Positions 12,353 to 13,321 of a stretch of DNA of 64,000 bases are shown here, one piece after another. Position 1 is the stretch's first letter, and every line of letters starts with the position of its first letter. A program made the translations under genes and the position numbers. The notes beneath the pieces are model-generated. The model did no database searches. It was not told the DNA's origin and saw nothing but the letters and a program-made list of their open reading frames with translations. Origin of the DNA: Actinomycetes bacterium (lineage in GTDB: Bacteria > Actinomycetota > Acidimicrobiia > Acidimicrobiales > Ilumatobacteraceae); NCBI GenBank assembly GCA_025359865.1, contig JANYDH010000213.1, positions 62,001-126,000 on the forward strand. Reading direction: 5' to 3'.

Positions 12353-13321
12353 TCAGGGCCCGGGATCGGCGGACTCGGGATCGGCGGACTCGGGATCGGC
12401 GGACTCGGGCTCGTGCTCGGGCTCGGGCTCGTGCTCGTGCTCGTGCTCGTGCTCGTGCTCGTGCTCGTGCTCGTGGGCTTCGTCTACGCCTTCGATGACG
12501 GCCGGTTCTATTAGGAGCGGACGGCCGCTCGACCACAGTAGGTAGGCCACCCCCATGACAACGGCAACGATCGAGGTCCACTGGTTCAGGCGCAATCCGC
12601 CAATGTGGTGTGCGGGGTCGACCCGAAGGCCCTCGACCCAGAACCGGCCGAGGAAATACCCGATCACGTAATAGGCCATCAGGTGGCCAGGGCGAGGACG
12701 CCAACGGCGGTCGATCAACAACAGCACGCCGCACAGCGCCAGATTCCACAGCGATTCGTACAGGAACGTCGGGTGGAACGTGGTGCCCGGCAGATACCCC
12801 GCGGCGATTGCCTTCTCGCCGCTGACCCGCAACGCCCACGGCAAAGTAGTCGGACCGCCGAACAGTTCCTGGTTGAACCAGTTACCCCATCGTCCGATGG
12901 ACTGCGCCAGCGCAATGGCAGGCGCAGTGCACGTGGCCAGGATTGCGGGTGAGATGCCGCGCCGCTTGCCCGCCCACAACCCGACGGGAATACCGAGGAG
13001 CAAGCCACCGGGGATGCCGAGCCCACCTTTCCAGATCTCGACGATCTTCACGAGATCGTGCTGGAACGAACTCCAGTCGGTAGCCACGTGGTACAGCCGG
13101 GCGCCAATCACGCCGGCGATGACCCCCCGGATCGCGATGTAGCTCATGTCGTCGCGGGTTCCGACGTGACGCGCCTCCAGGCGGCCGCCGGTCAGCCACA
13201 CCCCGGCAACGACACCGAGCGCAATCATCAGGCCGTACGCGTGAATTGCCAAGGGGCCGATGTTGATCACGCCCCCTGAAGGGCTGGGAATGCTGGCGAA
13301 CAGCACCGAGACCACCTTCAC
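12353..13321 (-). CDS. lgt: Prolipoprotein diacylglyceryl transferase with His/Glu-rich C-terminal tail
   Basis: A 322-residue membrane enzyme adding diacylglycerol to the lipobox cysteine of prolipoproteins. Hallmarks are IHAYGLMIALG (26-36), the Lgt signature GRWGNWFNQELFG (143-155), and HPTFLYESLWN (183-193). Several hydrophobic segments are present. It starts at GTG 13321, overlapping the TGA of the upstream hydrolase (GTGA). The tail from residue 283 is unusual: about nine alternating His-Glu pairs, then Pro/Glu and three SADPE-type units. The encoding DNA is a (GCTCGT)n-like tandem followed by repeats of GGATCGGCGGACTC. His-Glu tails often bind zinc or nickel; its role here is unknown. 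The window encodes several Lgt clients. Confidence 0.92.
   Translation of the reverse strand: MKVVSVLFASIPSPSGGVINIGPLAIHAYGLMIALGVVAGVWLTGGRLEARHVGTRDDMSYIAIRGVIAGVIGARLYHVATDWSSFQHDLVKIVEIWKGGLGIPGGLLLGIPVGLWAGKRRGISPAILATCTAPAIALAQSIGRWGNWFNQELFGGPTTLPWALRVSGEKAIAAGYLPGTTFHPTFLYESLWNLALCGVLLLIDRRWRPRPGHLMAYYVIGYFLGRFWVEGLRVDPAHHIGGLRLNQWTSIVAVVMGVAYLLWSSGRPLLIEPAVIEGVDEAHEHEHEHEHEHEHEHEPEPEHEPESADPESADPESADPGP

Follow-up and report, generated by a model that had tools for sequence, protein, structure and literature searches.

A histidine-glutamate repeat tail on a predicted prolipoprotein diacylglyceryl transferase of an Ilumatobacteraceae bacterium

The lgt gene located in the window (the whole stretch of 64,000 nucleotides that was analysed) encodes a predicted prolipoprotein diacylglyceryl transferase (Lgt) that ends in a run of alternating histidine and glutamate residues. 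This ending raises the question of whether the tail is a selected metal-binding element of the enzyme or the product of repeat expansion at a permissive protein end. The features of the locus are collected in Table 1.

Table 1. Features of the lgt locus, in window coordinates
Feature	Position	Strand	Basis
lgt, prolipoprotein diacylglyceryl transferase, 322 aa, GTG start	12353..13321	-	PF01790 216 bits, TIGR00544 170 bits, 5azb fold
alpha/beta hydrolase gene, directly upstream of lgt, 4-base overlap; context	13318..14106	-	
galT-like gene, convergent with lgt; context	11336..12286	+	
C-terminal tail past TM7, residues 266-322, predicted disordered	12356..12526	-	coil, pLDDT near 50
(HE)8, pure CACGAG x8	12428..12475	-	codon reading and array search
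PEPEHEPE	12404..12427	-	codon reading
SADPE, SADPE, SADPGP (15-base repeats)	12356..12403	-	codon reading and array search
Pro104, at the E. coli H103 position (HGGL motif)	13010..13012	-	alignment
dispersed 41-base palindrome copy, between convergent lgt and galT stops; adjoins the tail, not part of it	12302..12342	.	

The Lgt core and the reality of its tail

The window protein scored above the cut-offs of both Lgt profiles in the profile search (216 bits against 24.9 for PF01790, and 170 bits against 118.9 for TIGR00544). AlphaFold2, which was supplied with the window protein and 45 relatives, returned a model with seven membrane helices and a mean pLDDT of 86. In the fold search, 5azb, the E. 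coli Lgt, was alone in reaching E 0.001 or better (TM 0.69/0.77, E 6e-12), and it was also the sole sequence match in the PDB set. The E. coli residues Y26, R143, N146, G154 and R239, which together with H103 are termed essential in a published study (PMC13251419), align with Y29, R144, N147, G155 and R226 of the window protein. We compared these positions in two alignments, A1 (28 Lgts from the same family, the window protein included) and A2 (46 rows from a wider set), and all five were invariant in A2. A further arginine, R233, matches E. coli R246 and, as R226, is invariant in the alignments. These observations agree with the first-pass annotation in describing a normal Lgt, and diacylglyceryl transfer activity is predicted from the intact core.

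The sixth position differs, since H103 is replaced by proline in the window protein, in 27 of the 28 A1 rows and in 20 of the 46 A2 rows. Tyrosine, tryptophan or phenylalanine at this position in other bacteria are the only replacements given in PMC13251419, so that the absence of H103 does not exclude the window protein from the Lgt family. H103 is therefore not a defining feature of Lgt outside Proteobacteria.

In the model, TM7 spans residues 245-265, and a coil with confidence mostly near 50 follows from residue 266, as expected from the earlier placement of the tail past the last membrane helix. According to PMC4728403, TM7 of E. coli Lgt has its N-terminus on the periplasmic side, and the enzyme bears positive charge on its cytoplasmic face. 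Since TM7 of that enzyme begins at the periplasm, the tail should by homology lie in the cytoplasm; of the two faces first proposed, the cytoplasmic one is thus retained and the periplasmic one abandoned.

Read by codon, the protein ends in ...EGVDEA-(HE)8-PEPEHEPE-SADPE-SADPE-SADPGP-stop, the repeat part making up the final 40 residues. Nine alternating His-Glu pairs and three SADPE units had been counted initially; there are eight consecutive pairs, with the ninth HE inside PEPEHEPE, and the SADPE repeats are present with two complete units and a third that reads SADPG(P). On the forward strand, the tail corresponds to a pure (CTCGTG)8 array at 12428-12475 and to 3.5 copies of a 15-base unit at 12361-12413, together about 115 bases, and both are in frame, which bears out their description as simple, expandable tandem repeats. 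By the rule applied to all tails compared below, the window tail has 60 residues, a charge of -20 and an acidic fraction of 0.35.

The patterns of both arrays found no other match within the window and none in 100 dinucleotide-preserving shuffles each, by which a chance origin of the arrays was rejected. A chimera or a frameshift was likewise rejected, the tail being in frame, continuous with the Lgt core and closed by a normal stop. A search of the entire genome (5.0 Mb) for HEHEHE codons returned the lgt tail and just one other site, on contig C200; there the frame of an ABC permease, read by eye, encodes MSMSTSTS instead. The window also holds a second long six-base array, CGGGAT in 10.7 copies at 20267-20330, whose minus-strand open frame reads IPIPIP.

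The host genome is a draft of 219 contigs (97% complete, 2.9% contamination), and an error of the assembly could account for the repeat number or for the array itself. Tandem repeats are a general source of such errors, as stated in PMC6868369, and contigs of the host genome end at many copies of a 41-base palindrome, indicating that short repeats trouble its assembly. Nevertheless, the two arrays probably fit inside a single read pair, both are read through without interruption up to the stop, the contig of 132,985 bases is unbroken at the tail, and relatives assembled from other samples have repeats in the same tail. We consequently regard an assembly error as very improbable.

The palindrome is near-perfect, with the consensus TTTGGTCGTGAGATGTCGCTGAGCGACATCTCACGACCAAA. 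The host genome has 14 complete copies of it and also 83 half-sites, against 0 matches of a control pattern, and 40 relatives lacked any complete copy. Each of the 14 complete copies carries 1-4 arm mismatches, and no more than 60 bases separate at least 18 half-sites from a contig start, as if perfect copies broke the assembly. The copy in the window is predicted to fold strongly (z -8.9). It was not called as a U-tract terminator, and as a known RNA it matched just two microRNA families, under their gathering scores. A RAYT transposase was searched for through PF01797, with no match in the host genome and a positive control in 5 of 14 genomes. The palindrome looks REP-like and particular to the window species among the genomes searched.

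A second lgt-like gene of the same genome (L002, on G000:C124) lacks the start of the domain, PF01790 matching from profile position 52, and neighbours a DsbD_TM protein and a CopC-CopD protein; its contig is possibly a contaminant. This gene has no HE tail, so that the window Lgt has no HE-tailed counterpart in its genome.

Tails of related Lgts and the origin of the repeats

Lgt was matched in 95 of 100 related genomes, one genome being taken per species. Tails were extracted from 89 loci of these genomes (L004-L032 and L041-L100), with the weakest and split matches omitted, and from 79 closed frames on 80 named contigs. After leaving out the window copy (L001), the partial L002, a GatC fusion (L057), the open-ended L183 and identical tails, 161 distinct tails out of 167 from other Actinomycetota Lgts were counted.

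These 161 tails measured 10-197 residues, with a median of 40. Net negative charge was observed in 128 of them and not in the other 33, and the median acidic fraction was 0.24 in tails of at least 20 residues. Exact tandem repeats of at least three copies were present in 14 of the 161 tails, whereas 200 shuffles of the residues gave 1.1 such tails on average and never more than 5. Tails of the same genus differ among themselves, with (STDE)6, (LDDDL)3 and DADDD runs, and PAEDL x3, EPELA x3 and, in Sinosporangium siamense, TGTAT x6 were also observed. HEHE was found in none of the 161 tails, leading us to reject the HE tail as a clade feature. The window tail has 9 histidines and the next highest tail 6; 85 of the 161 tails have none.

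As far as the sequences compared indicate, a variable, acidic and repeat-prone C-terminal extension is general in Actinomycetota Lgts, and the HE make-up is private to the window species among these tails. The initial statement that such an extension is not a family feature has consequently to be withdrawn, variable acidic extensions, some of them repeat-bearing, being common in the phylum. It had also been considered that relatives might lack the tail: the HE tail is indeed missing from them, whereas other repeat tails are present there. PMC13251419 describes a C-terminal extension without known homology in M. tuberculosis Lgt.

One of the relatives' genes (L057, G033:C51, 450-1586, minus strand) is an in-frame fusion of Lgt to GatC, the Glu-tRNA amidotransferase subunit C, with PF01790 at residues 28-270 and PF02686 at 300-371.

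To place the repeats at the DNA level, eight identical CACGAG units have a P of about 0.001 under window codon usage, and the three SADPE units, the third without its Glu codon, a P of about 2e-4 to 3e-4. In the relatives, the three PAEDL units share one DNA sequence, as do five of the six STDE units, and the EPELA units of L188 are mixed; tail repeats are thus pure or near-pure in the window and in most relatives examined. Because the unit lengths are divisible by three, the reading frame is kept. The use of one codon pair throughout and these modest probabilities fit recent slippage at a weakly constrained site, and codon preference could also explain them.

Taken together, we consider it highly probable that the window gene specifies a normal Lgt whose tail is cytoplasmic, disordered and polyanionic, is particular to this species, was expanded by slippage and has no selected metal function. 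In Actinomycetota, the stretch after TM7 would accept nearly any soluble, disordered and mostly acidic sequence, and because of this tolerance in-frame tandem duplications of a few codons would build up there and be replaced fast. In the window species, such duplications would have given rise to (HE)8 and the SADPE repeats, in a tail that is probably outside catalysis. We infer recent slippage and near-neutrality. The C-terminus of Actinomycetota Lgts would accordingly be a fast-evolving, repeat-prone and mostly acidic region that can drift to extreme compositions.

A related reading overlaps with this explanation and differs from it solely by claiming selection: the tail would be a selected, acidic and disordered cytoplasmic brush, kept in composition and free in sequence, serving, for example, solubility, membrane charge balance or docking, with HE as one interchangeable version. 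The predominance of net negative tails and their acidic fraction, exceeded by that of the window, are in line with it. However, 33 of the 161 tails are not net negative, the shortest has only 10 residues, and such a brush is without a known function, so that we hold this reading to be possible but doubtful.

The tail ends would nonetheless not be wholly unconstrained, as judged from a tyrosine-containing motif near the C-terminus (DYVPADE, GYVAADE, DYLAGDD and similar). This motif is common to the four other same-genus Lgts and was also seen in three more family members (in all L004-L007, L022, L026 and L049); it is absent from the window protein.

Histidine-glutamate runs and the metal-binding question

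An alternative to the near-neutral tail is a selected cytoplasmic metal module (Zn, Ni, Co or Mn), acting as a membrane metal buffer or tuning Lgt to metal supply. The occurrence of HE runs in other proteins bears on it. The (HE)4 DNA pattern was found in 12 of 395 class genomes and the (HE)5 pattern in 9 of 396 phylum genomes, the window genome being included in both counts; the two samples overlap each other and the relatives set. When the 57 loci that these patterns gave (L101-L127 and L228-L257) were searched by tblastn with the Lgt core, only nine loci were hit, all of them the window gene, and no other Lgt.

Among the 11 other class genomes with (HE)4, four of the proteins were named by Pfam: a trigger factor and a thioredoxin, with the run at the C-terminus, and a cation efflux protein and a nitrile hydratase alpha chain, with the run at the N-terminus. 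One small protein had no Pfam match, one protein we take to resemble LarC and one a response regulator. In the remaining four (L101, L103, L107 and L111), the HE frame is short or rivalled by another long frame and may not be a gene. The eight other phylum genomes, with runs of at least five units, gave the same cation efflux protein, one unnamed protein, five presumably LarC-like proteins and one that we assume to be S1-domain-like. HE runs thus lean to metal proteins, which favours a metal module, yet they also arise at ordinary protein ends, such as those of thioredoxin and trigger factor, and in the presumed S1-like protein, which does not. The window genome itself encodes, on G000:C19, a presumably LarC-like protein (L003) with its own His-Asp-rich stretch, HDHDHQHDYDHQHDYEPVH, which is more likely than the Lgt tail to bind metal.

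The five proteins scanned around lgt comprised Lgt, the alpha/beta hydrolase, GalT, a sugar-type ABC ATPase and a 4Fe-4S ferredoxin. None of the five is a metal transporter or chaperone, which argues against a metal module; the ferredoxin is the sole metal binder, as a cluster, and neither a metal-handling domain in Lgt nor metal genes alongside it were found among them. The lack of HEHE in every other tail and of any histidine in more than half of them (85 of 161) also speak against it, as does the very low level of free cytosolic zinc.

The initial proposal that the tail could chelate metal is plausible by analogy, since the model peptide Ac-HEHEHEHEH-NH2 forms complexes with Mn(II), Fe(II) and Zn(II) in vitro (PMC11938343), a point in favour of a metal module. 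The same work reports that acid-containing His peptides form weaker Mn complexes than His-only peptides and have fewer free histidines near pH 7, which weighs against one. In addition, Ni/Co proteins are enriched in histidine-rich low-complexity regions, as given in PMC6821194, in support of such a module. No literature linking Lgt with a histidine-rich or metal-binding tail was found in a search that covered largely papers outside subscription.

On balance, we judge a selected metal module to be unlikely. More specific still, and hardly credible in our view, is the idea that the tail serves Lgt as a cytoplasmic sensor or buffer of metal whose length can be tuned, in which case slippage would vary the HE number between cells and thereby give metal an effect on the committed step of lipoprotein maturation. 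The preferred reading remains that of a slippage-expanded tail, which likely binds divalent metals weakly, as an HE tag would do, and would have no selected metal role. Against its neutral character stand the outlying position of the window tail (9 His and the sole HEHE) and the frequent occurrence of long HE runs in metal-handling proteins. Were the HE version to have a role in metal handling, lipoprotein maturation would be tied to metal supply; nothing here requires such a role.

Comparison with known systems

Metal-handling proteins resemble the window protein in a long alternating His-acid run (the PF01545 cation efflux protein of L109 and the presumably LarC-like proteins of L230-L234), and differ from it in that Lgt lacks domains for metal transport or insertion. 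In its C-terminal region, the window protein matches the nickel/cobalt efflux model NF007454 at E 5e-5 over residues 249-306 only, with 22.7 bits, far under the cut-off of 195. The engineered HEHEHE affinity tag is alike in its alternating His-Glu and is used in labelled proteins; the window run is natural, has eight units and is carried by a membrane enzyme.

With E. coli Lgt (5azb, 5azc), the window protein shares the fold and the five aligned essential residues at 28% identity in the fold alignment, and differs in the proline at H103. E. coli Lgt with C-terminal His6 and myc-His6 tags was used in complementation, according to PMC4728403, and thus a His-bearing C-terminus is tolerated in that enzyme.

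In the M. tuberculosis Lgt type (NF009611/PRK13108, 476 positions), an Lgt core is likewise followed by a long extension without known homology, as described in PMC13251419. The window protein scores 197 bits against this model, under its cut-off of 636, and its tail is shorter and built of HE and SADPE repeats. Altogether, the window protein appears to be an ordinary Lgt whose tail is an extreme case of a kind already known, and thus a curiosity and not a new system.
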